Below, in pieces: positions 6,251-52,993 of a stretch of DNA of 64,000 nucleotides (the first letter of the stretch is position 1; every line of letters starts with the position of its first letter). The position numbers were made by a program, and so were the translations under genes. This DNA is from Schistosoma haematobium (taxonomy: Eukaryota; Platyhelminthes; Trematoda; Strigeidida; Schistosomatidae), in contig NC_067195.1 in the NCBI RefSeq assembly GCF_000699445.3, positions 61,913,591 to 61,977,590 on the forward strand, written 5' to 3'. Under the pieces are notes generated by a model. It saw nothing but the letters and a program-made list of their open reading frames with translations, did not search any database and was not told the DNA's origin.

Positions 6251-6460
6251 TCATACCCATGCCGTCCATCCTTCATACATGAGAGCAAGATTATCAACAT
6301 TAGTGGCTTCATGAATGCAAGCATCTATTTGAGCACTGATGGACATTGATTGATCCGTGTTAGCAGTAGGCAAAAACGAATCAAATCCATGCAAACGATT
6401 GTAGATACGATTCCAAACAGACAAAGCCGCCATGTTTAGAGATCTTCCTGGAAGTATAAC
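6251..6460 (-). CDS. SMG1: SMG1 exon 17 (FATC domain and stop)
   Basis: 210 nt starting VILPGRSLNMAALSVWNRI and ending EATNVDNLALMYEGWTAWV then stop. This is the FATC domain, required for kinase activity across PIKKs. The NLDNLAxLYEGWTAWV end is almost invariant in SMG1. Confidence 0.97.
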   Translation of the reverse strand, partial: VILPGRSLNMAALSVWNRIYNRLHGFDSFLPTANTDQSMSISAQIDACIHEATNVDNLALMYEGWTAWV

Positions 6461-9400: not shown

Positions 9401-12400
9401 AACAGCAGTTTCGATAACAAAGAATATTGAACGTGATCTAAGAAAAAGGAATTCAGTTTAAACGGCTAAATATTTCGTTATTTACTTCAATTTCCTTTTA
9501 CTTAGATAATTCCGATGCTTAAGAGAACTCGTAATCACTTATTTGATTGAAGTATAACCCTTCCAATCTAATAAATGAACTGCAAAGCCACTATAGGGAA
9601 ATAATAACCTTAAGAGAGATGGAGGTATATATAGAAGCAAACAAACGAAAGATAAAGACTTAGTATGGCGCATTCTGTCTACACAAAGGTTTAGGACAAA
9701 TACTTTTATATATAAAGCTGCAAGGAAACAAATAAGTACACTAACAACTATTGACCATAGTGTGAAGGCATAAGATTATACATACGTATTGCCTCAGGTT
9801 AAAGAAAAAGTTGCACAGGAAATATCCAAATGTACTTAATATTATCATTGTGGAAAAACGTGGTTCAATTGGACACGAATTTTATTAGAATTAAAATTAT
9901 GCGAAAAAAGACATACCTTGATCTCAAGGTTTCAACGTAATAGATTGACCGGGCAATAGCGTTTGCTGAAATCTCCGACATATTTTCGCCAGAAGCAGAT
10001 CCTAATTCAGCAGCATCTTTGATTGAATTGAGGGCATTTGTTAAGCAAATACATGGATCTTGTTTGAAAAGTTGTGACGTTTTGTCGATCTCAATTGTAT
10101 GCATCCAGTTATAGGCAGACAGGCTTAGAATAAGATGTTTATAATGCTGTTCAGCAGCCTCAATTTCAAATGTCTCTTCCGAACATTGACTTAGTTGACT
10201 TGAACGGGTAACTAGTCGATGAATAAGATTACATGCAGGTGTCCTAAGATGCTGCACACTAACAGGCTGTGTCATTGAGATTTGAACATTTACACTTTCG
10301 ACAATTTTCTCAGCAGATAGACTTACAACACTAACCGATCCTGATGCTTTAGCAGAGAGTTCACCTTCAACCAAAAGTCTATGAATTGATAATCCGGTAT
10401 TTTCAACAAGTACACAAAATAGACGACTCGACGCTAATCCAACCAAGCTTGCTAGTGCAAGACGTGAGGACAAACGACCAATAAAGTTATCTATGGGATC
10501 AATAAATAATTTAGGGGTTAAATCTGAAATATTATCGGTGTAACCATGATGAATTATCTGCCAGTGAGTCAACCCATCCTCCAGTACAGAAATAAAAGAC
10601 ATAATTCCAGCATTGTAAACTTCATCAGTCCATGTACAAGATGCAATATTATCCGAAATACTACTCGATAAATTAGGCTCCCATCTCCATAATGAAGCCG
10701 CACCTTCGGAGCAATTCGAACTTTTCGACATTAGTACAGTAGTGACTTGAGAAATGATATCGACATAGTACCACGCTAAAGCTGTTATGGTGCATGAGCT
10801 AATTCGTATAGCAATCTCCTCTAACTGAGATGTTGTATTGGTGAGAGCAAGGTGAACAGCAACAAGAACGTGATGGAGTTGTGCATCTCCCTGGTTTTCT
10901 ATGATGAAATCCTTTAGGAGGAAATTATCTACAAGCTGTCTAAGATTGGTGGTATTTGGTTTGGCCATGTGATGTACTACAAATCTGGAAAAATTCTCAA
11001 CCATAGATACATTAGCTGTTATAAGGGATTCTATAGCTTCGGGGACCAGAAGTCTTATTAAATTAGAGCGCAGTTGACTAATACAACGAATAGAATCCTT
11101 CACAGCTATGAGGAATGCTAGTTCTCTTCTAACATCTGCCTCGTAGCCAGCATTAAGATTCCAAACACCTGTAGACTGGTGACGAAGAACACTAAACAAG
11201 TTTACTAAGCAGTCTGTACATGTCCCAAGCTGATCCAGGGGAAGACTCTTAATATGAGTTGTATCAGTTTGACAGTTACCATTATTCAAATTCCACTCTT
11301 TAAAATCAATCTCAATAGCGAGAGAGTTGATAGAAACGCTTAAAACATAATCAAATAAGGCCCAGCAATAAGCGGTTACACCAGCGGCTCCTTGGTCAAA
11401 TACAAACAAATTCAAATTATTGATTTCATGAAGGATGGCGCTTTCGGTATTTGCGTAATCCGAAAGCGAATTCACGTTTTCTTCTTTAATTCGACGTAAT
11501 TCACATAAATGATTAAAACTTTTCTTGGCTGCTAGCTCCAGTACATTAGACAGTTTTAAATCGAAATTGGAAGTATATAGCGGAATATCAGATGAAATTA
11601 AATTCATCAGTGAACCAATATTGTTCGATTTCATTGACAAATCCATTTGTGAATGAAAATATTTTAGTTGATCAATCCAATGAGCCAATGAATCAATAAA
11701 TTCTGAGCTTGTTATATAAATTCTAGCAATTGTGTAGTAGTTAGATAAGGTGACACACAGAGCTGAATTTACATCCTCATTAGACGCAATTAAGGATGAT
11801 AACCAGGTGGAATCAACAAGTGATCTATAATTTTGGAAGTGCGATAGGATCTCGTCTATCCATATTTTATTCTGTTTTGAAAATTCTCCATGTAGATCTT
11901 CTATTCTTTGCTTAGCTTTTTCTACTTGTTGACAACGGTACTCGGAAGACGACAGATCATCGTGAGTAGCAGCTATTAAAGTCAAATAACGAGTTTTTAT
12001 AAACGAGGCATGCTGACGAGCTTTCTTTAATTCTGTCCAAACAGTTAAACGTGAAACAACTACGTCCAAAGACGAAAATAATGAGTCCAAGCAAGCACTT
12101 TGAACTAACTCAACAAGTCTTACTGTTAAAAGACCTGAATACATTCGAAGTTCTGAATCAACACGGCGCAAACGTCGATATGTTGATATTGTTTGATAAT
12201 TACAAGAATTTGTGCTACCACCGCCGTGAAAAGCAGCTAAATGAATGAAATCAGTCACAATTTGAGAACTGGATGTTGGATGCTTTTTTTGTTGCCAATC
12301 CACTAAAGGATCGATTAAAAAAGCTTTGAGTTGTATTAAAATAGGGTCAACTATATGACGTGCTGCTTGTAACCCACTTTCTGCAGTAAACCGGAACGTC

Positions 12401-15400
12401 CCACGTACTAATGTATCTTGACACGCAGGTCCAAGTGCGTGCCTTAATATCCTTGTTAATCGAAACGGAACTCTTTCTGCAACTCTCAGGCTTTTCCCTT
12501 TATCAAAACAAACATTATAATCTATGTGAACAATGTGCCCGGTAGATAGGTCTATGAGAAGGTTATCAAGATGTCGATCGCCAAGACCAACTAAATATCC
12601 CAAGCTGCTGAGCAAACCAGCTGACTTAGCAAATGTACGTGTAACCCTCCACCAACTAGCGCATGAGGGATTTGAAGCCCACAACTCACGAGTTAATAAG
12701 TCTGAAGGTGTTTCCGCTTCCAAAGATATTAGTACTTCGCGTAGTATCTCCAAAGGCCAATTAGAACGAGACTGAGACTGATAATGGTGACCAGCAGCAT
12801 GTAGAAACTCTTTAAGGCGAGCATGGAACAGTTCCCCAGGTCTTGGAATTACAGACGTAGATGATACATAGCCATTACTAGAAGAGAGTTTATAATTTCT
12901 GAGTTGCCACTTTTTATACAGACTGAAAAGAGGGACAGCACCCTGTACCATTTGCAGAAGACCAGACCGAACTCCTAGAGGAGTAACAGAATATGTTCGG
13001 GCAAAAGTATTTTCGAAATATCTAAAGTTATTCGACGACAGTTCAACTGCAGCGATATTTGTAAGCTCGAACAAATGCATAATACGGTCATCAAGACGTA
13101 AATCTTCTAAACCTTTTAAAAGGTAAGGATAAGAACGACCATTTTGTGCTCTGAGTAAAAGACGCTTCGGTCGAGTTTTTGTTGGCAGGACAGTGATACG
13201 GCTACCTAAGTAAGAGGCTCCTATGCCAAGATGTCCCGGTAAGGGAATTCCACAGGTGAAAGATTTTGTGGAACTAACTGAATGATCATTTTTAAACTGT
13301 ATTGAACAAAGCCGAGGACTGAGTTGCCGTAGATTTAGGTAGGATACATTGTTTATAGACTGTCGAGCATCAATATCAGGAGCAGCTCCCACTCGAGAAA
13401 CAGCAGGAACTTGAGAAAAAGATGTTGATTGGTGGGTTGTTTGTAACTGATGAATAAGTTGACGGATAAGGGAAACAGGTTCTTTCACATCTCTAAGATC
13501 CATAGGATGCAATAGCGATTCTTGAAGTTCATCAATAACCTAAAATATTATTCAGTTAAAATTATAGGCAACTAAGAACATGTAATGGTAATACTAAAGA
13601 TAAATAAATGAATCTAGTATAACATAATTCCTTAGATTCAGTAACATGAATCACACCCGAGGAATCAAAAAATTCGATAACTCGTCCTCAGAATTCATAT
13701 TACTACTTTTAAGAGTGAAAGGAGGATCTAGTTATCTACTGCATCGAACAACTAAGAACGATGTACATATGCCAACGCGTAATTTACTGATCTAAGTTAC
13801 ATCCCAAAAAATTACAGAATAGATATATAAACACTATCAAATAGGTGATTATCTTTTAAACAGTGCTCATGCACTAGAAACTGGAGGACTAGGAAAGAGT
13901 GGTAGTGTATGATCATAACATTGATTTCTGTTTCGCAAGAATAGAGAAATATATTAAAAGGCAGTAGCGAAATTGCTGTCCGTTAGTTCAGCTAAAACTT
14001 CCATAAAATAACTACAAACGACAATAAAATATCACTATATATAACATTCCTTGAACCTTACTAATCCCACAACTGAGTCATTAGTAAGGATTTCAAAAGC
14101 CTCTACCGATTGTGTACATGAATCAAAATGTTGAGCTTCATGTCAACATTTGAACCCAAAAGCTACAGATTAAGATATAAGAGCGTAATTTACTACGCCG
14201 TATAGTAATAAAACTAATCTCTCTTCCAATAAGCATAATTCATGATAATCGGGGCGAGACTCTAATTTAAGGACGAACCAATCAGAAGCGTTTGAGCAAT
14301 CTCAAGGTCACGGAGTCAAGTTCAACACGTGATGCTAACATACGATCGGTTTACAGCGGATTTTAGAGAAGAGGTGATTATTGAGAGGCTACAACAGATG
14401 GGACTATTAGGAAGTTCTTGTACGTGCGACTGCGGTTATCAAATGACTGCAGCAAAGTGTGCAGACCACCGTGGTGAGATTATGTTTCGTTGTTCATCAT
14501 GTTGGAGGAAAAAGTCTGCTCGAACGGGGACTTTCTTCGCTCGATCGCGACTGACATTAAGGCAGATCATGATAATAATGGCAAATTGGATAATAAAGAC
14601 ACCAGTAACACTGGCTGTGGCGTTTGCAGATGTTACTGAAACTTCAGCAGTTCAGTGGTATGAGTACTGCCGTGACATATGTGCAAGTAAAATGACACGT
14701 CTACGCCAATCATTCGGAGGAGTAGGATGCATTGTGGAGATAGATGAAACGTAGTAAGAAAGCAAAAATACAATAGGGGGCGTAGTATCAAGGAAGAATG
14801 GGTAAGTAGCATTTCCGTAAATATACTTGACAGGTACTTGGAATTTATGACCGATCAACGCAAAAGGGACATTCTCAGAGGGTAAGAAACCGGCAAGCAA
14901 ACAAAATAATACCAATTATACAGGAATACGTGCAGCCGGGCACAACAGTATATACGGATGATTAGCGGGCTTATAGGTGCCTACATATACTTGGATATGT
15001 GCATCATGTATTAGTGCACAAGCGCCATTTCGTCGACTCAACAACCGGCGTCCATACTAATAATAATATTGAAGTTATGTGGTCCAGACTGAAGGAATTT
15101 TTAAAACCATACCACGGCTCTAGAGGACGACTGTTATGGAGCCATATGGATGAGTTTCTATACCGCATGCATTATGATTTCAGGACTTCTGAACCTTTAT
15201 CAAACCTTAACAAGTTTTTAAATCATGTAAAAGAAGACCATCCACTGTAATTTATTACTTCCTTACAATATATTTTAACTTTACACTGTCTTCTGATTGG
15301 CTAATAATTGTCAAGGTCATTTAAGATTCGTTCAAGCTTCGTCCCTAAATTAGAGTCTCGTCATAATCGGCATACATTTTGGGAATGCGGATGGTAATAC

Positions 15401-18400
15401 ACTTGGTTTTAGTAAGCTACCGAGTGAGAGGTTCGAAATTTTAATTGTAACAGTTACGTTTTTCAACATTTACTAATAATATTCGTCATAAAAACAAAAA
15501 ACACAGAACTTACATGCCCGAATGTCCTTTGAAACCATTCTTCATGTGGAGTTTCAGGTTTAACAAGGATAGTTAAAGAGTATAGCTGTGATAATAAATC
15601 AAGAGTTGGTTGTAGTGCAGCAAGGTATTTTGCTAAATCAATTGACTCTGTCAAGTTTTTGGATCCCAATAAATCATCCTCAATAGTTTCCACTGATGTG
15701 AAATCCGTATCATTTGTAATTACGTCATGCGACAATAAAAAGTTGTTTTCTTTTTCAATTATTGAGTGTTTACTTAAAATGCGCTTTGATAAAGCCTTAG
15801 AGGTCTCAACAGTTTGGGATACATCTATTTTTTCAGTCCGTTTTAGTTCTGATTCTAAGAGATTTATCTATAAAGAGTTGAGTAAATATAGGGATCAACG
15901 TACAAGAAACATCAAATCTTAAGACTAAATATTAAGTAAACTCAGTTATTATGTTTATTAAAACTAGAAAAAAATCTTCAATAATACCTAGTCAGTTCAC
16001 AACAAACTAATGTAGTTATTTAATATCCTATATACCCTAATTCAGAATAGTAAATTCGATATAGTAAGCAGAAAGATGTTGGGATATACCTGAATGAGAG
16101 AAATCACTTGAATATTATGTATGAAGACAAAACTAAGTTGCTTGTAGAATAAAATGGCATTGTTATTGTCTGTTTATAAGCAGTTAAAGGGTAGAAAATA
16201 GTTATTTACAAGTAAATTTTAATAAAGAGAATGGAAAACTCAAAGCTATTAGATAATATAAATGGAATGGACCACATTGACTACATAATTTATATTTTAG
16301 TGAATGCGAACTATTAACAATGTTTATATTTCAGTTATTACCTTTTTGGATAATTCATCTAGATGTTGTACCAACGAACCAAGCCATAATTCTTCCCATA
16401 AAACAGTGATACGTTGTAGTTCATAAGTGAAAATTTCCACTTCATGAACGAGATCGCTAAAACCTGTATTTCTCAAAGCAATAACTATTTTTGAAAACGA
16501 GTGAGACGGATTTAGCTTTGAGTCTGATTCCAAAGTTGTTGCGTTTGTAGAAATCGTGAGATCAAGATTATCTGCTGTGTCAGCAGGATTTTCTGAAATA
16601 AAAGGCAGTGTTGATGGAAATAAAATTACTTTTCAAATAACCAGAAATATTCGAAAAACTCAACATGGTATTCATTGGGATATTAAACAATATATTACAA
16701 CAATACTGCATATATCTGCAGAAAGACAACTACGTTTCTGTCACAAGTGATTTATGGTTCCAAACGTACCGCACAAAACATAAACAAAAAAACTACAGGT
16801 GTTTGTGATGTTAACATTATTTGAATTACATAGAACTGGCATTAATTTCCATTTACGCTGTAGTCAAATTTTAACTAAGTTGTTATGCGATACCAACTTT
16901 GAACAACGTTTTTGTATATTTAGTATATCATGTGATAAGTTTTTCAATTTATTGAAGTGCATATTGTTAGTCTGTACTATACATTAACATGTCGGACCCT
17001 TGAGTTACATAGTATTACTCCACAGAGTGTGAAAAACTTTTTGAAGGCATTATCAATCAGAAAAGAGTATTACAACAGAGCAAAACTGTAGGAGAAAAAT
17101 CGTTACACATTCAACTTTTTGCTATACATATACTGATACCTATCATACTACCGCCAGTAGCACACAAGAGCCTTCCAGCTACGTCAACTTTGATTATCTT
17201 TATCGGTGAGCCATCAGAATTGAGCAAATTACACCACGAAGGTACGAAATGAATGTTTTACCAAACATCAAATCGCCAAATGGAATCCAAGTAGTCATCA
17301 AACAGTGAAATGATATCATTGAAGTCTACTTCTGGGTTAACAGATATATTTTTATGCACACACGGAGTTGTCGGTAACGAAATTAAAAGGGGGATGGTTA
17401 TACTTAAATTTCTGTTATTTTGTGTCTGTAATCCACTTAAGGCAAGTTTGAAGCGCCATGTTCTGCAACAGTGTCTTACTACTGAGTCCCAATACAAGTC
17501 AAAAGCAAACGATAAACATGATAGACTTTAGATGTTCCAACAGCTAATAATAATGAGAGAAGTAACTAGCCTGCAAACTACGAGAAATTTAACGCATTTC
17601 CCGCGATTTACATTTAGGTGGTTTACGGCAAATGATATCACTCAGTAAACAACTGGTAGTAGGTTTAAACCCAGTGAACTGAGTAACACATAACACAACC
17701 TTTTTAAAAGCAGGTAAGACAGAGGTTAATCAGGCGCTAGTGATTGGGACTATCAATGCTTAATTATAAATTTATAAATGATTATAGTTATAAAATTTAA
17801 ACGAGGCAGTGATACATTTCTAAATTTTATTGAAGTTCAGATGATATGTACTTATGACAAAAAGACACGAGAAGCTGAGTGACTTAAATCGGTACTCACA
17901 GACAAATGATATAAAAACGGTAACAGTTGATACGTCAGCAATATATTAGATATTTAAATCAATTAAAATGTTGCATAAATTCATTTATTAAACATTTCAA
18001 TACCTTTACGTTGAATGTCTGGAACATTTTTGTCTGGATTAACAGGATCACAAGCAGCTACAACAGCTGGAAACACAAGTTGAGTTGCTAGACGGAAAGA
18101 TGGTGAATTCCATTTGAAGTTGACATTATTGTCAGTACCAACATAAATAAGTCGATTCAATAGTGCAACTAAGCAGTTGCGTATCATATCATCTGGCAAA
18201 CCCAATCGAACTAAAACTTGTGGTAAACAAGCTTCCCAAATCGCTGGACCACCTAATGTTGGACTAGATTTAGATCCAATTCCATGTTGTAGTTTGTCCG
18301 ATTGTACATTTATACGCTGATGATTAAACTCAGATAGTACTGGACTTGCCTGATCAAGGAAACCTGAGATCATACTACGGAGTTTCCGAGATGGTGAGCA

Positions 18401-19713
18401 CAGCAGATCTAAGAATTTCAAAGTTGCTGAAAGAGGAAAAATAATAAAGACAATTAGAAGAGCGAAGAAAAGATAGTTTTGAAATATAGTAGTTTGAGCA
18501 TACGATAAATATATGTTGACCAGTTGTCACAACATAAAAACAGACTATAAAACAAAATTTTAGAATAGGAGCGGTATTTAAGAAACATTTTTACAATTAT
18601 AAAACGATAGATTAGAAACAATGTTGAATTGATAACGTTCCACGATATGAACTAATTAATCATCTGGAAATATCAGGACTTGGCCATTCTTTTTGGACTA
18701 AAATGCTTTTAATTATCACAATCCCGTTATTTTGTTTTATTATCTGTAATATAATGATATGAACAGATGTCTATTTGTACTCGATTCGATTCTATTTAAC
18801 TTAAACTGATTTACCAAAGAAAGTTTATATTTTTGATAAAAATGGTTGATTTCTTAAAACTTACTTGTTGTAATGTCTAATTTAGTAACTGGTTTATAGA
18901 AGATAGAATTTCCTGATCCTCTAGATTGGTCTGCTATAGTGAGAAATGTAGCATATGCTTGAGCTGCAGACATATGTAGAGTATGTTGACGTTCAGTAAT
19001 CGAGACTAATAATTGATGCAAAAGTTGTACTAAATCGTTTGATAGACTTGGATTTTTCAAAGAAGGGATAATATTCCGTAAGTGCGAAAAAAATTTCTGC
19101 TGCATCTATAAACGGAATTGATAGTAACATTTGATTAAAAAAATAAATACACTTAAATATAGGAGCAGTCACAGTAACCCGACCATTGCTGCTACCTTGA
19201 AGTGGTGGTCGGGTTTGCGAATCATGATAAACCAATCGGGTTACACTAGCTGAAAAAATCGTTCCTCAAGGTTCTACCATACCAGGCAGGTCCATCGAAG
19301 AGCGGTAAGACTAAAACCAGAAAACTCAAGGTCTGGGGGCGAAGTCGTACTGCTGACTGTATAGAGGTGTGATGGCAGTAAGATGTTTCCTTCAACCAAC
19401 CAGCATGACAGAGATACTGCCTTCCCACAAAGGAAGGGTGGGATTAGAAAAGGCTGACCCTAAAGACGCACACCTCGCCTTATCCCACGAACTTCCGTCT
19501 TCGATGGTAAGGCCTCAACAAACACGGAGCTAACACAAAAACCATCCACAGAAAAGTCGTGTGTGACCGGCCTCAAGCAGCTGTCCCTTGGGCACTGTGG
19601 TCAAGATCTAAGGTCACTAAGACCAAATTTAACCCTATTCCCTCTTCAGGTACCTCTAGGAGAACCCTTACAATGTGTCGGCAGCCGGGAAGTGATAACT
19701 GCCCTCATGCCCT

Positions 19714-19754
<41 letters not shown>

Positions 19755-22687
19755 CGAAATAAAATTCATTGAAAATCTTACATGGAAATGTGCATACTTC
19801 GGTTGGTAAAACATATCAATTAGATATGAAATTACTTCACCACAAGTTACTGAGTTCTAATATGCACCTTTCCATCATTCATTTAACGTAGTGTACAAGG
19901 AAAAACAAGTAGTAACGATAGTGCTTGAATTTATTATGAGAAATAAGATGACGACTACTGCTTAATGCTTTATGGGAAAATAATTCCAAGTAAATTCTTA
20001 CATTGAACTACTATTGCAATTTGGTTTGAAGCTGGATCATTAACAAACAATAAAGGATCAAATCTAAATATTTCATTAGTGATGGGACATATTTATAACT
20101 AATAAGAGAATAAACAGATAATTTAACTAAGTAGAAATGTATCTGTACAGTTTCGTAGACTGTAGAATTTTCATAATTTAAATCACCAACTGATCTTAGC
20201 TAAACCATCATTGAAATCCTGGAAGCATTGGATGGATATTTCATTCTAGTATAGCGCTCAGTAGTGTGCAACCACGTCGCCACGAAGAATAGAACCGAGG
20301 ACCTTCAGTTTATTACGTGAACGCCTAAGCCCTAAACTACTGAGCTGTAAAGTGATTGAAGTTAGAGATATAAATCATTGGATACTGGACTAATGGTCTA
20401 GAAGTATGGCGTTCGTACGAGACTAAAAATCTTGGATTTGATACACGGTGGCGAGTTCGTGGATGTGCAATGCTGAGGGTCCCAACGCCAAAACCAAACA
20501 GTTGTTCAGAGCCTCCTAGTTTTCAATGGTGTTCTAGCTAAGATCAATTTCTGATTTAAACAAAGGAATGGACTCACCAAACTTTTAATGCGGTGAAGTT
20601 TTAAGCAATACAATTTATTTACTTATATATACAAAGAAAGAAAAATATTTTGACTACAAATTTATGAACTCTACTGACTTGAGAATCTATTTGATCGTCA
20701 GGACACTGAGAAGAGAACTGATGGAGATGAACTGGTAAGTCAGAATGATGGTTGAATAGTTCTGAGTCATCTTCATCACAACGATCAGTCGCCAAAAAGG
20801 TTGTCAGAGCACTGATTAGAGCAGTTATAAGCAAATCAACGTCTTTACTATCATCAGTTGAGTTTTCTAAAGAAAACAGTTTTTCAACCAATATAGTTAG
20901 TGATGTATACTCTTGTGGTTGTACTAATTTTAAAAGGACAGGAACACTTGAATGGTTAGAGGATTTCTCATTCAGGACCGTAATAAAATTTCTTGCTGCT
21001 GACTGGAATTCATGGATCTACAAATGGAAATGAAATTAAAAACTTAAGAACAAAACAAAAGAATCAGAATAACTTACCGATAGAGAATTTTAAGAAAAAG
21101 TGCTAATATTCTTAAGACAAATAAGTTGATTTAGCTTCATAAAACTGCACAACTCAATTAGCGATTATTACGCATTTGAAATGAATATAACTTGGAGAAC
21201 GAATGTTCCCGAAAAATTTTGTGGATTGATAATCATTGTTTGCCTCAACATCAAGCCTGGAACGAATATGTGCTAGTACAAGTTGTTATGAAACATCGAC
21301 AGGATGATTTGAAATCAGCGGTATGAATAACAAATAAGTCGAAATAATATAGTAGCAATGATTATGACACCTGACCTTTTGAAGCTAAATATGTTCGATC
21401 TTTCTTATCACGATAGCAATTAACCAATTAATTGTCAGCAGCATTTAATGCTTCGTATAGTTAATGCTGAGGGGACCATCATCCTATCACTAATTACACA
21501 TTGAAAAGCCACCCTTATAATTTACACATATTATCCAAGCGGCTCCTATACAAATTAGGATATGCTGAGGTTAGAATTACGTGAAAGAAGCGAAACGATA
21601 GGTAATTCATGGTAGAGGGGATAGAAAAGGAATGATAATAGTGGTACGTTAGTAATTATTGGCACAGCTCGATGTCGATCATAAATGAAACCAACGGCGA
21701 TCTTGTATTCTCAGAGGAGTAGAATTAATGTTTTTTGTCTTATTGTTTGAACTGTATACTTAAGTATACTTATTGTAGCTGTCACATGATTTTATATTTG
21801 TTTTTCTTCTAAGATATTATGTTCTATATTGCTTATTTTTTAGTGCTCCACAGTACCGTTCGTGTGTCCTCATTAACAAACAAAAAATCATCTTTTAGCC
21901 TTAATTACTTGAGCAGAAAACAAATATTCAAATTTCTAAAGCAATGTCAACTTTGATTCACATTTCACTATTCCATTCGATAAGACAAACGGTATACTAT
22001 TTTTCTAAACATCAATATCCCTACACCAGACTTTTTTTTCTCTTCTATCAGTAGTTGGGTCGAATTCCGTGATATACCATTTATGACAATAGAATGTTTA
22101 TGCGAACAATAGATCTTTCGAAGTTTTAAAACAACATTTGGATAATGTTAAAATCCCAAATTTTAAAAATGCGTCATGCCATTTACCTCTTTATATCCAC
22201 GCAAATAGCACCAGTTGGCCAATTTCAGCCAAACAGATGCAGATGAACCATTTGAAGATAAATGTGTGGCCATCATTAGTAAACGATTAGTCCATGAAGT
22301 TGAAGAACCGAGGAATGAATTGGTAGATTGAAGGGGTTCAGTAATATCTGGTATACCGTTACACCAGGATACATCAGACAAGCAACTGAACAATTCAAGG
22401 TCTGACGCAATACGTAAAAATTTCTCAGACTAAAAGTTGAATAAAACGATATATAATTTAGGATCCAGATCGCAGGTTTAGAATTAGAGCGAGACAGTGA
22501 TAAAAACTGTACATAGGAAAAACCAGAACAGTAATTGGAATGATAACCACCTAGAATGATTTGGAGTGCATAGTATGCACCACCAGCTTATCATTTGTAG
22601 ACAACAGATTGGTATGATTAAACGATAACCGTAGTTCAGTAGCTTGAAACGAATGTCCAATGAAATGTTGACTCGTTTTTATAGACG

Positions 22688-22763
<76 letters not shown>

Positions 22764-25700
22764 AGTAAAGATAAATTCCTATTGATGGAGAACATTGAAT
22801 TTGTGGACACCTATTATATCTCTCTCAAACTTATTTTTAGCTTTACACTACGATTAGTATTTCTATTATTTTAGTGCTACCTTAGTTGGTTTTTTTCAGT
22901 GTACTAATGTGAAGAGAACTTGAACTGAAACATACAATAGAGAACAAACTCATCAGCAATACAAAAGTGTAAACCCTTTCCATATGGAACTAAAAATTGA
23001 ATGTAAAAAGTGCCAAATGAAATGGTCGGGACAAGACGGCATTTCGGCAGATGTCTTAACTGTATGTCTCCAAGATCATGCCAATTACTTTGCTCCATTT
23101 GTTCAAAATCAAACAAGTTGCTACAATTCAAATCAACGTAGAATAAGGGGGCATTAACAAGTTGAGAAGCATGAAGGAAATATCTAATTCCGTGGGGAGC
23201 TACACAATAGAAACAGTCTAAAAGGAACAAGTAATAAGAGGGAATGGGGAGGAAGGAATGATACTGAGTTTAAGATTTAGAGGAATATAACGAACGAATC
23301 CAATTCTTGTGATGTGATCAATTTTGGGCCATATCAACTAACATCGCCAAATAAAGATTACAATTATGGGGGGGATTCAGACTAGGGAGCCCGCATCTCT
23401 ATATCATATATATATCAACAGGGTTAGATTCAATGGCAAATGACTTTTTGAAATGATGCCATATTTCAGTCTGGCTACTTCTATCTTTCTTCCAACCTAC
23501 TCCTAGTCAGTCTGCAGGTTTAGAGCCTAATGGTGCAATTCACCATTTTTACTTAGTGCTGTACGATTAAACTCACTATTACTTCCTTTGTGATGTCACT
23601 ACAATTGGGAAACGATTAAAATACATCTATAACGAAATACTAGAAAACAACAGATAACCCTTATTTTTAATAAACATTTTCCAATGATGTGAAGTGATAC
23701 AGAAAATAGTTCTGCTCTCAATACTTGTCTTTCGGTAGCCAGACGGAGATCTCACCCAAATTACAGAATGAGTAAGTTGCATCAGTACCGAGACTTCATT
23801 AAGTAAAAGCTAGTCAGAACTCACAAAGCCCATAACATAAATGTAGAGACCAACACGGTTAGCTACCTCATTCTTTATTGTTAGCTAGTTTTAAAGCAAC
23901 AATTTGAGGAAGAGAAACGTACTCCAAACATTTTCTATTATCATGATGTTGAGAAAAGCCTTTTGTCCACGTCTTCATTAAGAGCAAGGAATTGCGTCAG
24001 TTGGTTTGAGTGAATTAACCAGCAAGTTACTGCTCTGGTAACAAGGATCAATGAAATACGGCGTTAAACCTAATGTTAGTCTACTACCGGGACAAAAATT
24101 CAAATTCTACTTTAGGATAGTGTGGCCTTGTCGTGAGTTTTGTCATAATATTCTACAAACTAATATACGAAAAATGATTAGTTGTAAAAGCAGACGAATA
24201 TAAAGAACAATCAATAATCAATTTACTGTATAAAATACCTTTTCTCCTGGTTCGTCTGAGCTTATAAAACTAAGATATATTTTTTCTGCCATTGAGATGT
24301 CGTTAGTATTTGTAGGTGATTCTAGCCAATCGAAAAGGCTTAGAGCCATTTCAGCTTCCAAATTACATTTAGATGAAGTTTCAATTGCATCACAACTGTA
24401 TTTTTTCATTAATCCCAATCTCAGACCAGAAGTTAACACTGCTATTGCTTTTGTCTTATTAACTAATTCTTGTTCGTCGTTCCCACTCCCAAACAACCAC
24501 AGAATTCTGGCCATACAGTTATAGAACTTTAAAGTATCCAATTGAGATAATTTGGATAGTATATCATCTGAGGAAGATAAAGCGACGTTGCAAAGCTTAT
24601 CGAAATATGTTGCTTCTTTATCCACTGAAGTATCAAGAAGTGTGAGACATTTCGCTGTTTTAACAAGCAAACGCCGAGCAAGATATGGACAATTATTTAA
24701 ACATGCCCATTGGCAAGCTGAAAGTTCAGCGACAGAATGGGCTTTCATATTGGAAGAAATGAGGTGTAGCCAAGTAGAGTAGTTTATGGGACTTGATGAT
24801 CCATACATAGTACATGTTCGTTCACTAAGTATGAGTTGCGCTTTAATCATGTAATCTTGCAAACCATCATCCAGAACATAATTTGGTTGAGAGTAAAAAT
24901 CTGCAAACATATTCAAGGGTAGAAGGAAGTTTGCACTTGCTGACTTCTGTCTTATAATCGTCGTTAGCTCCAACAACTTGTCCTCTGTATTGCCATAACT
25001 ATCATGTTTTACGCAAGCAGCATTCACCAGTAGACTGTCTAGTTGCTTTTGAATGGAGCTCTGGGACCATAGTTCAGAAGAACTTGGAATGAGATTATCT
25101 TCAACTACATTTTCAGAAACCCATCTATAAGGAAACAAATAAGGAGTAGAGGAAGCAGAGTTTTTATAAATACGAAGTAGTAAAAACTTAAAATAATATG
25201 ACTAGAGTGACTGAAAAAAGTAACATCAGAAGTTGGTTGAGTACGTATATCAAAGAGAAAGCTGATCTAAAATAAATTAGTGATAAATTTATAACGCTGG
25301 GAGTAAAGACAACTTTAATGGGACGAATGGTATTAGTTTCGTCAAATAATCATAAATTAGATGGAGGAATATTTCAAGACTAACTTCTAGCTTAAGGCTA
25401 AATATTATTATTATTGTTAGCAATAGTAAAAGCTTAAGGCGGAAAGTAATTAAATGGGCAAACTTACTCAGATAATTTACTCAAGCAGTCGAGGCGTGCT
25501 GAATTAAGTTGAAATGTTGAACTTTCCTTTAGAGATTTCATTTTGACACACGATGTTATACGGTTCCGGAGTTTATGCGCACAAGTATAGTTACCTTCAG
25601 AAAGGTACATTTGAAGAAGGACATTTACGATATACGCTGTAGATGTTGGAATGGAGCATTTATCAGTTTCATTGGTAATTACGTTTTCTGGATTTAAAGC

Positions 25701-28700
25701 ACTGCTTTTTGGCAAGTTCGAATCAACAAAACTGGTTAATTGTAGAATACCTTGATCCCAACGACCACGAGCTAGAGAAGATATACCATGAAGCCATGAA
25801 AGCGGGTTTTTTTCTGCCGTGAAAAGATCATCCGTCCACCTAAAAATATAAATTTACCATAATTACCATAGTTGTAAACCACATGGAAATAGAATCTTTA
25901 ATTTCTAATTATCTACTATAAACACAAATCGAATACAAAAATAAAAATACCTCTTACGAAGGAATGTCTGAAAGCGCTATCACGGGTTTTGAGTACTTGA
26001 TCTTGTCGTTGAAACAGTGACAGCGTATTATGAAAGCAAATAATACTGCTGTTAGGTGAGAAGTCTATATTAATTTACTTATTTGAGCACATAAACATTG
26101 ATACAAGGGGGCACCAAATATATATGCAGCAGACAATAACAATGAAGTCAGTAGCAGTTATCATTGATTTGTGTGAGGATTGTGATGCTGCCCGGGTGCC
26201 CAAACCGAAACATGATATTAAAGACGTTGTAAAATTAACTTATTGTCAAGTGTTGGTCAAAGTAACAGCTCTTAGGATGATGATAATAATAATAATAAAA
26301 GTTAATGAAACACATAAGATCAGTGCACCAAGTCACTGAAATCTTGTATAAGATAAACGTAAACCTTATTTTTGTGAGAAAAACTATCAAAATCATCCAC
26401 CTGAGCTACAAATCTTCTACACCATCTCAATCTGTGATTAAAACCTCGAATGACACAAAACGTACAGACGCAAATCAATCAGCTTACATTTTTTCTTAAA
26501 TCTTCAGTTTTAAATATAAAATTGGTTGTTTTGATGCTTTCCATTTTCTTCAGTTCCCTATTATTGTTTGTACGAATGATTCTAACATTTTGTTCTTACA
26601 CCTATTGATTTCTTCTTACGGTACTAGTTTTAAATCCAGTAACGTAGATTGATACACGACTGTGCAAGGTCCTATGTTATTTATGCCTATCTGACTTAAC
26701 CAAGGATCTACAGAAACCCAGTTATCTTTCCTTAAAAGTAATGTAGGATGAGTAGTATTATTCGTAACTTAAAGGACAGAACAGTTTATTGAAACGAGAA
26801 AGGGACTGAATTTTGCGTTACTTACTGTGCTAATGCTTTCAATTCTTCCCATGCGCCTAAGTGATGAAGTGCATTGGATAGATAAATAAATAAATCTATA
26901 GGGTCACCGTATTGTTTTAAGGTGCTGATCCAAATTTCTTGAACACTTGGGTTGTTGTAATTTGAAATAATTTTGAGTAAGTTGTATGCATGATAAATAG
27001 TTGTCGATAAAACTTCATTAGCTGGTCCCATGCCACCACAGGACACTAACGGCAAGTCACTTGAGATACGAACAAGAAGTGTTCTAATACGATTAAACCA
27101 CTGTGTACAAGTGTTCTCATTTGCGGTGAAAAATATAGAAGCAGATGTCGATGGATGGGAAAGTGCAATCGCAAAACCATTGGTTGCATTGAAAATAACA
27201 CGTTCAAGGTAATTTAGAAAATTCAAAAGTAAGTGAATCTGGCTTAAATGTCGGTTCTTCTTTTGGTGAGAGAAAGCCTCTGAAGATGCCATATGGAATG
27301 AAATGATTGAGGATTGATTATTGTTAGAAGAATCGTTGGAATAAACTGGCTGGATAATCGCTCTTAAAGTTCCCTCAAGAGAGAAAAATGTTTTCAGTGG
27401 GTTAGCCCAAGGGGCTACTTTCAACTTGTAATCAACCATTGCCCATGCAGTGTGCCATAGAACAGGTTGAATGAAACTAGTGCACTGTAGCAACGAAAAA
27501 TCATACTTTTTATCCGATGGAAGTGGAGAAACTAAGTATGATAAACGTCGTATCCAATCAATAGGACTCTTTAAAATCTTTAGTCGACTGCTCTCTACTT
27601 TTTGCGTGTATGGAGCTCCCCGTGTCAAAATACCCAAAATACCCGCAACAGCTGGCAGACTAGGGAAAGCAGTAGTCATAGTTATTAGATTGTTGTGACT
27701 ACCATCGGATACTGGTAATAAGGCTGTGGCTGATTGGTCCGGTCGGCGAGTGGTGAACCAAAGCAATTCCGAATACAAACAAGATGCTGGAAATTCCACT
27801 TTAGAGAAAGAAAATGATCCAACTAACAGTAAGAGATCATTGCCAGCCTTTTGAACTTGTGGGCATGGGTAAGATAATGATATTTGAGATAAATGTAAAA
27901 GATGAGAGGCAAGAATTGCATTCCCCTTTTCAATATGAGGAAGGGTATGTTTCATGAGGACATTCACAATGAAGGTGAAAACATTATTGTGAGTTGAGTC
28001 CAGAACTATTTGTGTGATTAGCATGCATTTTGAAAGAGTTATGAGATGAAAAATTAAAGACAGTTGATCATCAGAATTCAGAACACCTTCGGATAAAAAC
28101 AAATCGGTCAAGTTTAAAAGAACACAACACTCGATACTGGAAATACTTTTCACAGAAAGAAAACCAGTAATCATATCGCGAATATAGACTGGTTGAGACC
28201 TTTTAATAAGTGAGGAATTGTTCATAAACGACAAGAGGACTATTCTAAGACGAGGTGAAAAATAATGCCAGTTCTCAAAACAATTTGGTTGAATGATTTC
28301 ATATACACGGTAAAGCAACTTATTTTTAAGTTCACAAGACATACTTTTCATAACTTCAGTAAGCAAAGATAAACTAAATAATCCTAGGATTTCAGCTTTA
28401 TGACTACAAGATGAATCTGACTGTTTCTGTGAACCTATAGCCAGCTGGAGATCAGACAATGCTAGTTCACATACAGCACTCTGGAGATGCAATGTTGATG
28501 ACATATAGCACAACATACGGAAAATTTTTTGACTTGGTGAACTTCCTTTTTCAACATTAGATTTGGAACAGAATTTAAAATGGTGCAATTTAGAGTGTGA
28601 GTCAAAATAAATTAGTAACGATGAGGGATTCGCAGAAGTAAAAGTAGATGAGCATTTTATTTTGATGACAGTGAAGACCAATTCGAGTAGAGAATATAAG

Positions 28701-31045
28701 GAGCAATCGGTGTTGGGTAAACTCCCAGGATCAACGCTGGATATCACACAATTGTCTACTGATATTATATCAACATTAGAGCAATCAGAAAACTGTATTA
28801 AACAGTTCAAAAGCTTAAAAACTGAAGACTGAATACCATCCAAGACAATGAGTGGTGCACGAGGTGAAGATACATTTCCATGACCTGAATGCCAGGAACC
28901 ACTTTGTTTTTGTGATATTAATGAATTGTAATAAGCACTTGTCGACTGAATGATGTGAAGTAAACGTTCAATCCACTGTGAAACATTTCCGGATATAACG
29001 TCATTGAAACAAAGGTGAGTAGAATCGAATGCATGTTTACAGATGCCTCCAAATATACTACATAAAACGTTGAGGAAAAGTTGGACCGAAACAAAGTGAG
29101 AGTTTGGGTCAGAAGCTAGTTTCACGCTTCCTGATATTGGAGTACCCCGTTTGCAACTCATGATAGAGCATTCCGAAATAGCAGTATTAAGTGAGTTTTC
29201 GCTATCCTCCAACAGATGAGAGATCATTTCCCGAATGTTTTCGTTAATAATCAGAGGCAATGACGTTTGTTTGTATTCATTTATTTTTTCTTCCGTAGAT
29301 ATGAGAAACCAGTGTGAAAGACCGAAGTACAGTTCTTCATAGATAATATTAATGTTTACATCTTTTGAATTGCCGGACGAATCCACACTCCAACCTACGA
29401 GGATATCTGCAAGATCAGAAAAGCGGGCAGAAAAGGAACTTGAACAAGATTTTGTATAAACACTGATCAGACAACGAGCGGTAAGACCAACAAGTTGAGC
29501 GAAACGAGGTACATTCAGTGGTTGGTCCAGAGACTCTCCTAAGCGTATAAGATTCGAAATTACACTTGAACTAAAAGGTATCAAATCAATCCAGGAGCAT
29601 AAATTACTGATATTATATCTTTTTCTATCACCCACTGGTGCGTACAAATCTGATAAGATGCGTGATAAATGGGCAAGAATCCCTGATCTATACTGTGGAT
29701 TACTTTTGAGAACTAGTTTCCTGAATAACTTTAGTATATAAGAAATAACGTGCCCAGATGGTGTGTTAGATTTGGGCGTGAAATCATCACCAGCAACAGC
29801 ACCATTAACATCGATTTGTTTGTTTACTCCCAAGCTCGCCATATGAACAGCTAGTCTACTTAGTTCAACAGTTAATTCCAAAGGACAATGGGTTTCACAT
29901 AGACATGCCTCAATGAGACGTAAGTAAGGCTCATTAAAAGCATTATTAGATGTTTTGTTTGAAAGGTCGTTGTGTGCGTCGTTGACAGGCGAGACAGAAA
30001 GCAAATTGAACAAATGAGAAACAGCGAGCAAACGGCTCTCTAATGGTAAATCTGCTCGGGAAGCACGTTGAGTTAGTTGAAGAAACTGATTCGCTGATTG
30101 CAATGACATACATGGTAGAAGTGGTAAGCGTCTGATAAGTTCTCTCTTTCGCCTAGCGAGTTCCAAGTCGTAACTTGTTGATTGACACTGAAGCTGGTTC
30201 ATGATTATCTGACTATCAAAAATTGCCACTGAAAGATCTTTAAGATCACTATCCAGGCATGATGTAGAAATAACAGGTAGCATAGATGAGTTACTTCGTG
30301 CATTCTGATTTTGTAGCTGCAAGTTCTTGTCACGAAAGGAATCGGTGGAATCATGTGATCCTGGTGCCTTATTGTCGGATACTAGCACCCCAGTATATAC
30401 GTAGTGGTAGAAAAGACCCTAAAAGAAATAGTGGATTTAGTAATATGTATATACACATATTTCATCACGAAAAATTTGTAAAATTCAATTATGAAAAACA
30501 CCGCTTACTTCATTACTTTTACTTGTTTTTGCTCCCAAGTGTACAAGTTTGCGTACAGTATCCCGCATATGGGATTGTACAGCCAACGAAAGGGGTGTTT
30601 CATTATTCTGAAACAATATAAGATAATAATCACATACCATTGTAACAGGATCAACAACAGCTCCGCTAGAACAGAGCATATCCACAGTGGCGCAGTGGCC
30701 ACGTTTAGCAGCAAAGTGAATTGGGCGCCACTTAAGCTAAAAACGATTATGAATAATGTACAAATGTATAACAAACATTCGTTTCCCAGTTAGGATTCGC
30801 TTTGTTTTTTAAAAGCCATCTAACAATATCTTTATGACCATAATGGGCACCAACAATAAGCCCAGTTACATTTTCATGCTACCACATAGATTAAAATAAA
30901 TGCAAAATACCTTTATATTATTTAGAATGTAATTATCCGTAACATCAATATCATTTATATCCTTCCACAGTTTTTGAACCAGAGATAAATCGCCTTTTTC
31001 TATTGCTAAAAACCAATTTTGAGTTGTAGTTCCACATTTTTCCAT
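6251..31045 (-). CDS. SMG1: SMG1, PI3K-related kinase of nonsense-mediated mRNA decay, with N-terminal ankyrin repeats (17 coding exons)
   Basis: SMG1 phosphorylates UPF1 to trigger nonsense-mediated decay. Seventeen exons join without phase conflict into 12,024 nt (4,007 residues; human SMG1 is about 3,660). The order is ankyrin repeats (residues 1-145), a long helical-repeat/FAT region (~146-2250), FRB (~2260-2370), the PIKK kinase (~2490-2790) with LGDRHLDN (~2698) and HIDYN replacing DFG (~2717), a long C-terminal helical insertion, and FATC ending EGWTAWV. The HIDYN motif, the long gap before FATC and the GWTAWV end identify SMG1 rather than mTOR, ATM or ATR. The start is ATG 31045-31043, five bases after an acceptor, so there is either an upstream noncoding exon or a trans-splice site. 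The ankyrin part is unexpected; see findings. Confidence 0.93.
6565..7488 (-). CDS. SMG1: SMG1 exon 16 (C-terminal helical insertion)
   Basis: 924 nt, phase 0 to phase 0, starting DTYGLKWPIHDWFQSSS. Coiled-coil-like helices (LELVKSDLTSAELAVNKLHQ) fit the region between kinase and FATC. It ends in a Lys/Pro-rich linker (EPKPTPKVEK) before donor GTAATTAA. Confidence 0.92.
9039..9168 (-). CDS. SMG1: SMG1 exon 15 (short, 130 nt)
   Basis: Found by demanding a phase-2 to phase-0 exon between exons 14 and 16, which are otherwise incompatible. It has a ttctattcag acceptor, 43 complete codons with no stop, and a GTATGAA donor. FSRCVNIVNELEKAIKHKEK fits the helical segment expected at this point in SMG1 (FASQFNSSVSELELRLLQ in human). 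Confidence 0.85.
9917..13539 (-). CDS. SMG1: SMG1 exon 14 (kinase domain)
   Basis: 3,623 nt, phase 0 to phase 2, starting VIDELQESLLHPMDLRD. It holds the whole PIKK kinase: the N-lobe with ITVLPTKTRPKRLLL and YPYLLKGLEDLRLDDRIM, YSVTPLGVRSGLLQ, the catalytic loop GLGDRHLDN, HIDYNVCFDKGKSLRV, then about 800 residues of helical insertion. It ends YYVETLRS before the donor GTATGTC, which parallels the SMG1 pattern HFESLRTR. Confidence 0.96.
14253..15362 (+). mobile_element. Merlin-family DNA transposon, decayed copy
   Basis: A 1,110-bp element bounded by inverted repeats. The left end reads ggcgagactctaatttaagg and the right end, reverse-complemented, reads gacgagactctaatttaggg. It is flanked on both sides by the 8-bp duplication ATAATCGG (14245-14252 and 15363-15370), the target-site length typical of Merlin. 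The inner ends also share an inverted ccaatcagaa block. It sits in SMG1 intron 13, opposite to the gene's sense. Confidence 0.93.
14332..15250 (+). pseudogene. Merlin (IS1016/ISXO2-like) transposase, broken
   Basis: The N-terminal half has a zinc-ribbon-like CDCGYQMTAAKC...FRCSSCWRKKSARTGT, then a helical part (TSAVQWYEYCRDICASKM) and the first DDE aspartate in CIVEIDET. It stops at 14752-14754. Reading then resumes in another frame (KQKYNRGRSIKEEW) and again near 14999 with HKRHFVDSTTGVHTNNNIE and EVMWSRLKEFLKPYHGSRGR, the C-terminal part of the ISXO2-like domain. At least one frameshift and several stops separate the blocks, so no full transposase is made. Confidence 0.88.
15514..15867 (-). 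CDS. SMG1: SMG1 exon 13 (FRB domain, second part)
   Basis: 354 nt, phase 0 to phase 0. It starts INLLESELKRTEKIDVSQ and ends KPETPHEEWFQRTFGH, matching the SMG1 signature AETPHEKWFQxxYG. Donor GTAAGTT. The following intron contains the Merlin transposon. Confidence 0.93.
16342..16592 (-). CDS. SMG1: SMG1 exon 12 (FRB domain, first part)
   Basis: 251 nt, phase 1 to phase 0, after a ttttatttcag acceptor. ELQRITVLWEELWLGSLVQH aligns with the SMG1 FRB motif ELRRxTxLWDELWLGxLLQQ. The preceding Ser/Asn-rich stretch matches a disordered linker at the same place in the family. Confidence 0.93.
18004..18426 (-). CDS. SMG1: SMG1 exon 11 (end of FAT domain)
   Basis: 423 nt, phase 1 to phase 1. WEACLPQVLVRLGLPDDM and LVFPAVVAACDP correspond to the SMG1 FAT-end pattern W-x-IIPQLFxRL ... 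YPAxVG. Donor GTATTG after CGTAAAG. Confidence 0.9.
18865..19105 (-). CDS. SMG1: SMG1 exon 10
   Basis: 241 nt, phase 0 to phase 1, after a gtttatag acceptor. The frame used (MQQKFFSHLRNIIPSLKN, then SAAQAYATFLTIADQS) is the only one that joins exon 11. A second open frame over the same bases has no partner. Donor GTAAGTTT. Confidence 0.82.
19160..19710 (-). mobile_element. LINE leader fragment, minus orientation
   Basis: About 550 bases that are the reverse complement of a diverged copy at 37301-37815. Shared blocks include gtcacacacgac, tttttgtgttagctccgt and cagtacgacttcgcc. No ORF of substance is present. It lies in SMG1 intron 9 next to an (AT)n tract. Confidence 0.7.
19718..19753. repeat. 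(AT)n microsatellite
   Basis: About 36 bases of AT repeat directly after the LINE leader fragment. Confidence 0.95.
20211..20560 (-). mobile_element. Degenerate SINE-like repeats
   Basis: Two tRNA-like blocks (20260-20350 and 20385-20460) lie near a diverged copy of the hammerhead-like hairpin better preserved at 62.4 kb (cctggaagcattggatgg... against cctggaagcactggtcga...). The end, caatggtgttctagctaaga, matches the end of the 62.4-kb copy. They are heavily mutated and lie in SMG1 intron 9. Confidence 0.5.
20679..21017 (-). CDS. SMG1: SMG1 exon 9 (3' boundary uncertain)
   Basis: 339 nt, phase 0 to phase 0, starting IHEFQSAARNFITVLNE after ccatttgtag. I chose the donor GTCAGT at 20678. A GTAGTC 21 nt further on is also in phase and would add seven residues. 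Confidence 0.7.
22187..22429 (-). CDS. SMG1: SMG1 exon 8
   Basis: 243 nt, phase 0 to phase 0, after a caacttttag acceptor. It starts SEKFLRIASDLELF and ends VWLKLANWCYLRGYKE, a FAT-domain helix pair resembling the WLxLAxWCY pattern of SMG1. Donor GTAAATGG. Confidence 0.85.
22694..22760. repeat. (AT)n microsatellite
   Basis: About 67 bases of AT repeat in SMG1 intron 7. Confidence 0.95.
24239..25124 (-). CDS. SMG1: SMG1 exon 7
   Basis: 886 nt, phase 2 to phase 0; the junction restores Glu before WVSENVVEDN. The helical FAT-type sequence includes ACQWACLNNCPYLARRLLVK and the end of the exon reads EPGEK. The donor GTATTTT lies inside an ORF that would otherwise stop shortly after. Confidence 0.88.
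25468..25839 (-). CDS. SMG1: SMG1 exon 6
   Basis: 372 nt, phase 2 in and phase 2 out. The junction restores a Gln codon, and the exon continues WTDDLFTAEKNPLSWLHGIS into helical repeats (AYIVNVLLQMYLSEGNYTCA). Donor GTAAGTTT. Confidence 0.88.
26071..26212. mobile_element. RTE LINE tail-plus-leader fragment
   Basis: It starts as the reverse complement of the RTE tail (atttatttgagcacataaac, ttgatacaag) and runs on into a leader motif (gctgcccgggtgcccaaacc) also found at 32.1 kb and, inverted, at 33.75 kb. A (TAA)n stretch follows. It lies in SMG1 intron 5. Confidence 0.6.
26826..30418 (-). CDS. SMG1: SMG1 exon 5 (large N-terminal helical-repeat exon)
   Basis: 3,593 nt after a 90-nt intron (30419-30508), entered in phase 0 with GLFYHYVYTGVLVSDN. 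There is no ATG until codon 46 of the exon, which argues that translation enters from the ankyrin exons. It encodes about 1,197 residues of Leu/Ser-rich helical repeats that fit the divergent N-terminal HEAT region of SMG1. It ends in phase 2 at CA with donor GTAAGT. Confidence 0.9.
30509..30607 (-). CDS. SMG1: SMG1 exon 4 (ankyrin)
   Basis: 33 codons, phase 0 at both ends, after a 30-nt intron (30608-30637) ending ttgtttcag. It encodes NNETPLSLAVQSHMRDTVRK, another 33-residue ankyrin repeat. One repeat per exon suggests exon duplication. The donor is GTAAGCG; without splicing the frame would stop seven codons later. Confidence 0.85.
30638..30736 (-). CDS. SMG1: SMG1 exon 3 (ankyrin)
   Basis: 33 codons, phase 0 at both ends, after a 40-nt intron (30737-30776). 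It encodes RPIHFAAKRGHCATVDMLC, a complete ankyrin repeat of standard 33-residue length. The donor is GTATGTG. Confidence 0.85.
30777..30878 (-). CDS. SMG1: SMG1 exon 2 (ankyrin)
   Basis: 34 codons, phase 0 at both ends, after a 32-nt intron (30879-30910). The core GLIVGAHYGHKDIVRWLLKN is a textbook ankyrin repeat. The donor GTTTGT is weak but is the only one that keeps the frame. Confidence 0.8.
30911..31045 (-). CDS. SMG1: SMG1 exon 1 (ankyrin)
   Basis: 45 codons from ATG to a GTATTTTG donor, phase 0. It begins MEKCGTTTQNWFLAIEKGDL, and WFLAIEKGDLSLVQKL is the first helix pair of an ankyrin-type repeat. The exon itself starts at 31050 after a tttctttctttgtag acceptor, leaving five leader bases before the ATG. 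Confidence 0.8.
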
Positions 31046-33946: not shown

Positions 33947-34029
33947 CACCCTCTTTTATACTTATACAGCGGCTCGTCTTTGGTGGAAATTCGACTGTAT
34001 CTAAACGTTCTCGAGTCACTGTCCGGTTG

Positions 34030-40327: not shown

Positions 40328-40388
40328 GCAGTGGAATCCAGGACGCGCATTTCGTCCTATTTGGGACTCATCAGCTAGATGTGCCTGC
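40328..40388 (-). ncRNA. Hammerhead ribozyme (minus strand)
   Basis: The core CTGATGAG is followed by stem II GTCC/GGAC closing a 6-base loop, then GAAA, a self-complementary atgcgcgt stem III and the GTC cleavage triplet. Stem I pairs atctag with ctggat. All invariant core positions are present, so it should be able to self-cleave, perhaps best as a dimer because stem III is so short. Confidence 0.88.
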
Positions 40389-40825: not shown

Positions 40826-40886
40826 GCAGGCACATCTAGCTGACGAGTCCCAAATAGGACGAAATGCGCGTCCTGGATTCCACTGC
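40826..40886 (+). ncRNA. Hammerhead ribozyme (plus strand)
   Basis: Same fold as the minus-strand copy, with cleavage predicted after GTC at 40870-40872. The core reads CTGACGAG: the T-to-C change is at position 7, the one variable core position, so activity is not excluded. Stem I atctag/ctggat is intact. Confidence 0.85.
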
Positions 40887-52923: not shown

Positions 52924-52978
52924 GTAATAATAATAATAAATATGTAGATATATATAGTGGATGTCTATAAAAAATCGA

Positions 52979-52987: not shown

Positions 52988-52993
52988 AATAAT

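Follow-up and report, generated by a model that had tools for sequence, protein, structure and literature searches.

Evidence for an ancient ankyrin-repeat module at the N-terminus of flatworm SMG1

In Schistosoma haematobium, SMG1, a core mRNA-surveillance enzyme and the PIKK-family kinase of nonsense-mediated mRNA decay (NMD), very probably carries an N-terminal ankyrin module as part of a single gene product, an ancient flatworm gain that most likely serves in protein docking. The ankyrin part (145 residues) is encoded on the minus strand by four phase-0 exons and spliced via a 90-nt intron into a large SMG1 exon (Table 1). Judged from the sequence, the ankyrin-SMG1 fusion is best read as real, and we infer a single mRNA in S. 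haematobium. The joined architecture in the models of 16 species, a constraint resembling that on the kinase domain and a predicted cap helix at the junction support the single protein that the sequence-only reading had proposed. They give no such support to the parasite-specific partner that it also suggested.

Exon structure and extent of the gene

The window, that is, the whole 64,000-nt stretch of contig NC_067195.1 that was analysed, contains the gene from its ATG to the SMG1 C-terminus. The GT...AG introns measure 32, 40, 30 and 90 nt in exon order. Joined together, the four ankyrin exons form a 435-nt frame without a stop, and none of 20000 base shuffles gave an open frame. Splice sites read in the sequence bear out both the earlier description of phase-0 exons of 45, 34, 33 and 33 codons and the 90-nt phase-0 spacing between the last donor and the SMG1 acceptor. 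The N-terminal start M-E/G-K/R-C is found in most fluke models and in all three tapeworm models of the alignment. Downstream, the SMG1 exon can be read from 30418 without a stop for 1198 codons, and the earliest in-frame ATG comes at codon 46, as expected from the earlier remark that 45 codons lack one. An Rfam scan at the gathering threshold gave no match at the ankyrin-SMG1 locus.

The identity of the kinase gene is supported along its length. PF15785 matches the first large SMG1 exon (2.5e-20, 72.8 bits, cut-off 27), and a PI3/PI4 kinase match is located in the exon at 9865-13539. Compared with solved structures, the kinase scores best with SMG1 chains (266.6-300.9 bits), followed by mTOR (131.1 bits), with ATR also below; overall, the domain is nearer SMG1 than mTOR, ATR, ATM or DNA-PKcs. 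In tblastn, the Schistosoma bovis protein P0006 (4012 aa, bearing PF02260) spans 31045 to 6254, with only residues 3592-3601 uncovered, and aligns through residue 4012 at 6254, where a stop follows.

Table 1. Features of the ankyrin-SMG1 gene in the window
Feature	Position	Strand	Basis
Ankyrin exon 1: ATG and repeat 1, codons 1-45	30911..31045	-	read from sequence
Ankyrin exon 2: repeat 2, 34 codons	30777..30878	-	frame and Pfam
Ankyrin exon 3: repeat 3, 33 codons	30638..30736	-	frame and Pfam
Ankyrin exon 4: repeat 4, 33 codons	30509..30607	-	frame and Pfam
Phase-0 intron, 90 nt, between ankyrin exon 4 and SMG1 exon	30419..30508	-	
Large SMG1 exon, N-terminal solenoid and PF15785 (contains cap and linker)	26825..30418	-	
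Proposed ankyrin capping helix, first 14 codons of SMG1 exon	30377..30418	-	P0003 model
Poorly conserved linker, ankyrin domain to SMG1 solenoid, residues 160-204	30242..30376	-	alignment
Nine middle SMG1 exon blocks (ends approximate): 25841-25461, 25123-24239, 22429-22181, 21026-20676, 19105-18863, 18430-18005, 16593-16339, 15867-15511, 13539-9919 (kinase)	9919..25841	-	tblastn with P0006
Last SMG1 exon blocks (~9140-9024, 7488-6559, 6460-6254), ending ...EGWTAWV and stop	6251..9140	-	tblastn

Fold and conservation of the ankyrin part

The ankyrin part gives a Pfam Ank_2 match of 96.1 bits (curated cut-off 27.3), and the fold modelled for a homologue consists of stacked helix pairs with caps, as in ankyrin-repeat proteins. 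In the model of the Trichobilharzia regenti protein P0003, four ankyrin repeats are predicted, followed by a cap helix. The ankyrin identity given by the sequence-only reading stands; its count of about 3.5 repeats calls for a small correction if this homologue is the guide. In the same model, the predicted cap helix starts at the residue matching the 30418 junction, within the share of the protein encoded by the SMG1 exon. Column identity is 0.371 in the cap stretch versus 0.206 in the linker, and the cap stretch is conserved above the linker in six of seven pairwise comparisons, with 0% identity in Taenia solium. Repeat 3 is the best conserved of the four repeats (mean pairwise identity 0.752).

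With S. bovis P0006 as reference, identities of the ankyrin part, kinase and N-terminal solenoid are 91.9, 88.7 and 76.4% in S. japonicum, 70.6, 69.1 and 40.6% in Calicophoron, 57.4, 56.0 and 26.8% in Spirometra, 57.0, 53.8 and 26.0% in Taenia, and 45.6, 48.7 and 20.4% in Macrostomum. As judged from these protein identities, the ankyrin part is held under constraint similar to that on the kinase domain.

Distribution among flatworms and other animals

The search for the same arrangement that the sequence-only reading had called for found it widely. Ankyrin Pfams are present in 18 of 19 SMG1-Pfam matches, from 16 flatworm species that include flukes, tapeworms and the free-living Macrostomum. 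The nineteenth match is a truncated model that retains the last repeat (repeat 4), and repeat 4 is missing from the Echinostoma model. When the proteins of 15 relatives were aligned, as predicted proteins and not at splice-site level, no gap was seen over the window junction except in Dicrocoelium, which is 3 residues short. A search of proteins of about 80-254 residues for standalone orthologues of the ankyrin part yielded three. Two of them, T. regenti P0003 and P0005, extend into the SMG1 exon's share, and the third, Heterobilharzia americana P0004 (135 aa), is a separate ankyrin model; no SMG1-Pfam flatworm match bears the name of that species.

Outside flatworms, the SMG1 proteins of other metazoans resemble the flatworm ones in PF15785, in a kinase nearest the human SMG1 structures and in the ...WTAWV C-terminus, but differ at the N-terminus. 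An ankyrin domain was found in none of the 119 other SMG1-kinase matches (120 of 1084 listed), whether by Pfam accession, by a flatworm-ankyrin profile or by two motif patterns; no planarian, catenulid, annelid or rotifer was recognised among these 119, which include entries without an organism name and models with a short N-terminus. Four flatworm controls had gone into the ankyrin profile themselves and match it by construction. Of the 119 listed non-flatworm kinases, 110 match a profile built from the N-terminal region of flatworm SMG1. By eye, seven of eight non-flatworm N-termini start with Ser/Arg/Lys-rich or otherwise polar, low-complexity sequence; the exception is octopus P0123, whose model is short. 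Planarian Smed-SMG-1 is a flatworm SMG1 orthologue, a "bona fide SMG-1" according to its authors, and the word ankyrin does not occur in the main text of that paper (PMC3315482). A full-text search of the open-licence literature on Schistosoma, Platyhelminthes, kinomes and PIKK architecture found no description of an ankyrin-bearing SMG1.

Shared by parasitic and free-living flatworms and absent from the other animals listed, the module appears to be a long-standing flatworm modification and not an invention of the parasites. A parasite-specific module was rejected because free-living Macrostomum P0102 has the same fusion, which also leaves the parasite-specific partner unsupported. As the module occurs in both Macrostomum and parasitic flatworms, its gain would predate the split of their lineages, and the ankyrin domain would since have been kept under kinase-like constraint.

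Alternative transcripts and possible role

Two products might arise from the same acceptor: cis-splicing would give the full ankyrin-SMG1, and a spliced leader would start a minor, ankyrin-free SMG1. This is unlikely, and its probability is not to be added to the others, because the main explanation leaves room for it. Trans-splicing within gene bodies and acceptors shared with cis-splicing are reported for S. mansoni and other parasitic flatworms in PMC5832876 and PMC12582326, and the phase-0 acceptor at 30418 permits a leader-started isoform; however, the main texts of both papers, searched by word, contain neither SMG1 nor ankyrin. If both products exist, the choice between them could act as a switch removing the docking module.

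A two-cistron unit, the alternative raised by the sequence-only reading, would have the ankyrin gene end in the 90-nt gap and the SMG1 mRNA begin with a spliced leader at 30418, the leader AUG being the start codon. The gap is close to the S. mansoni median intercistronic distance (99 bp, 45 pairs; PMC12582326), flatworm leaders usually terminate in AUG (PMC12582326, PMC5832876), and such an AUG would be in frame because the acceptor is in phase 0. Moreover, annotations of these genomes often fuse operon genes into one model, with 204 fused models reported in S. haematobium (PMC12582326), and H. americana has its separate ankyrin model. Against this, the ankyrin fold is predicted to close with a cap helix that begins right at the junction and belongs to the part encoded by the SMG1 exon, and the joined reading recurs in gene models of 16 species that range from flukes to Macrostomum. 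The Macrostomum annotation described in PMC5730564 was cut using trans-splicing and poly(A) reads, and P0102, named in the style of that annotation, is still joined. In addition, the unspliced gap contains in-frame stops: the upstream frame meets a TGA 7 codons in, and the 66 nt that remain for a 3' UTR contain no ATTAAA and, as had been noticed earlier, no AATAAA; ACTAAA, a weak variant, is the sole match in the 90 nt among 16 poly(A)-signal-like hexamers scanned. We therefore consider the two-cistron unit very improbable. An artefact spread by copying between annotations is hardly credible: these genomes often yield chimeric models (PMC12582326), but the SMG1-linked ankyrin part is conserved at the kinase level over flatworm-wide divergence, and the exons and splice sites of the window were identified from its sequence, with no annotation involved.

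In the single-protein reading, the gene would encode a single polypeptide of some 4,000 residues, with four ankyrin repeats and their cap helix, a short, weakly conserved linker and a complete SMG1 kinase. The human SMG1 complex phosphorylates UPF1, acts in NMD and binds SMG8 and SMG9 (in part PMC7334022). The ankyrin domain is most likely a protein-docking module, attached to the N-terminal arch of the kinase through a flexible linker, and its target may be a conserved partner or some component of the SMG1 complex, the docking thereby recruiting or regulating the kinase in flatworm mRNA surveillance. More tentatively, we consider it possible, if doubtful, that this lineage-wide module takes the place of the disordered N-terminus that SMG1 has in other animals and engages a partner or substrate of its own, its inclusion perhaps depending on whether cis-splicing or leader trans-splicing prevails at the next acceptor. 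Conservation as tight as that of the kinase, over a range that takes in both Macrostomum and blood flukes, implies an unrecognised NMD input in flatworms, for which the module offers a defined and testable handle on NMD recruitment. It may also set the parasite apart from its host in a kinase complex that is essential.

The solved-structure matches shown for the ankyrin part are generic ankyrins and designed proteins, and thus do not indicate a donor family. The flatworm module shares fold, repeat length and capping with natural ankyrins and DARPins, but differs from them in its fusion to a giant kinase and in the pair of strands that is predicted to lie between repeats 1 and 2.

Ankyrin exons ahead of the SMG1 exon

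On the minus strand, four phase-0 exons of 45, 34, 33 and 33 codons lie ahead of the SMG1 exon, as the sequence-only reading had described. The introns following them measure 32, 40, 30 and 90 nt and are of the GT...AG type, the last one opening into the SMG1 exon, which starts at 30418 with a long open frame. Once joined, the ankyrin exons encode 145 residues that score far over the Pfam cut-off for ankyrin repeats, in a stop-free frame (stop-free in 0 of 20,000 base shuffles). Their introns span 30-90 nt, as compared to about 98 to 1971 nt in the rest of the gene, according to an approximate mapping; schistosome genes commonly have short introns near the 5′ end. At the acceptor ahead of exon 1 (31050-31045), ATGTT is left before the main ATG. 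Inspection by eye shows the ATG at 31050 to be out of frame; it starts an upstream frame of 14 codons, which could lower translation.

The exon that begins at 30418 has matches both to the SMG1 Pfam and to structures of human SMG1, and the kinase exon (13539-9865) matches SMG1 chains with up to 300.9 bits, mTOR being far behind at 131.1 bits. The predicted Schistosoma bovis protein P0006 (4012 residues) shows 99% identity over the 400 query residues scored and maps onto the window from 31045 to 6254, followed by a stop, with residues 3592-3601 uncovered. This would place the window in a Schistosoma closely related to S. bovis.

Distribution and conservation

A search with the ankyrin part plus the first 255 SMG1 residues, a query whose ankyrin portion would favour fused proteins and whose SMG1 portion could also catch unfused ones, gave 112 matches; SMG1 Pfam was present in 19 and absent from the other 93. 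These 19 represent 16 flatworm species: six blood flukes (Schistosoma bovis, rodhaini, turkestanicum and japonicum; Trichobilharzia szidati and regenti), six other flukes (Calicophoron, Fasciola, Paragonimus, Clonorchis, Echinostoma, Dicrocoelium), three tapeworms (Spirometra, Schistocephalus, Taenia) and Macrostomum. Ankyrin Pfams were found in 18 of the 19. The exception, Dicrocoelium P0024, is a model beginning within the ankyrin domain that retains repeat 4 and the cap. Models P0017 (Clonorchis) and P0023 (Echinostoma) likewise begin within the domain, P0023 without repeat 4.

With the Macrostomum kinase region alone as query, 2239 candidates were scored and 1084 matched at E ≤1e-60, of which 120 were listed. 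Among the 119 listed besides Macrostomum, those with a name including gastropods, bivalves, an octopus, a nemertean, arthropods, hemichordates, amphioxus and vertebrates, none had an ankyrin Pfam and none matched a profile of the flatworm ankyrin parts at E ≤10. When a profile was built from the part of flatworm SMG1 directly after the ankyrin repeats, 110 of these 119 matched it; hence, most have the neighbouring region without the ankyrin domain. Of eight non-flatworm N-termini inspected by eye, seven have a polar low-complexity start and the eighth is a short model.

Identity to S. bovis P0006 in three regions (%)
Species	Ankyrin part	Kinase region	N-terminal solenoid
S. japonicum	91.9	88.7	76.4
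Calicophoron	70.6	69.1	40.6
Fasciola	64.0	66.4	36.3
Paragonimus	64.0	69.7	38.0
Spirometra	57.4	56.0	26.8
Taenia	57.0	53.8	26.0
Macrostomum	45.6	48.7	20.4

Such kinase-like tracking of the ankyrin part would be unexpected for freely evolving or mis-joined exons.

One gene or two cistrons

A two-cistron unit, with an ankyrin gene followed by SMG1 as a separate cistron, deserves respect. According to two studies, AUG usually ends spliced leaders, and operon genes are often fused in models (PMC12582326, PMC5832876); the former reports 204 fused models in S. haematobium and a median intercistronic gap of 99 bp in S. mansoni (n=45 pairs; PMC12582326). In addition, H. americana has a separate ankyrin model of 135 residues. 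However, the 90-nt gap contains neither AATAAA nor ATTAAA, a predicted cap helix would span the junction, and the two parts are joined likewise in the Macrostomum model. With the kinase-like constraint, these last two points argue for the single ankyrin-SMG1 protein proposed by the sequence-only reading.

Going by its name style, the joined Macrostomum protein P0102 probably belongs to the PMC5730564 annotation. In that annotation, transcripts were cut on the basis of leader and poly(A) reads, as far as these were available (PMC5730564). In another Macrostomum protein, P0106, a prenyltransferase (named 4-hydroxybenzoate polyprenyltransferase) is fused ahead of ankyrin-SMG1. The fusion point lies upstream of where the ankyrin part starts and resembles a mis-join of operon genes. 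It shows that models of this kind do contain mis-joins, and it suggests that both genes form one Macrostomum operon; in this model, too, the ankyrin part remains with SMG1. The de novo transcriptome reported in PMC4891850 may be the source of Schistocephalus P0022, which would then be RNA evidence for the joined frame.

Putative role and other features of the window

Judged from sequence, ankyrin-SMG1 is most probably a real flatworm variant of SMG1; no description of it was found in the open-licence papers searched. Since ankyrin domains usually bind proteins, the simplest reading is a docking or regulatory module. Human SMG1 has a C-terminal kinase head and an N-terminal arch binding SMG8 and SMG9 (PMC7334022). 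In flatworms, the small ankyrin domain would hang before this arch, tethered by a linker that is some tens of residues long and poorly conserved. The parasite-specific partner first imagined is not supported: free-living Macrostomum has the domain too, and the putative partner should therefore be a general flatworm one.

Ankyrin exons and features elsewhere in the window
Feature	Position	Strand	Remarks
Ankyrin exons 1-4	31045-30911, 30878-30777, 30736-30638, 30607-30509	-	
Type I hammerhead ribozyme	40834-40878	+	67.7 bits
Type I hammerhead ribozyme	40336-40380	-	65.7 bits
Type I hammerhead ribozyme	62440-62485	-	34.2 bits, barely over cut-off 34
Non-LTR retrotransposon-like ORFs	34005-37065	+	endonuclease and reverse transcriptase matches; upstream of SMG1 gene
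LTR retrotransposon	48900-53028	-	RT, RNase H and integrase matches; apparently split over several frames
Neurotransmitter-gated ion channel membrane region, weak match	1033-1746	+	25.6 bits, slightly below cut-off 28.1
mir-3492 family match	37942-38019	-	56.7 bits; adjoins retrotransposon

The three ribozymes probably lie within schistosome SINE-like repeats, and we take the LTR retrotransposon to be gypsy-like. The ion channel match is perhaps a receptor-gene exon on the other strand, and the mir-3492 match may be repeat-derived.
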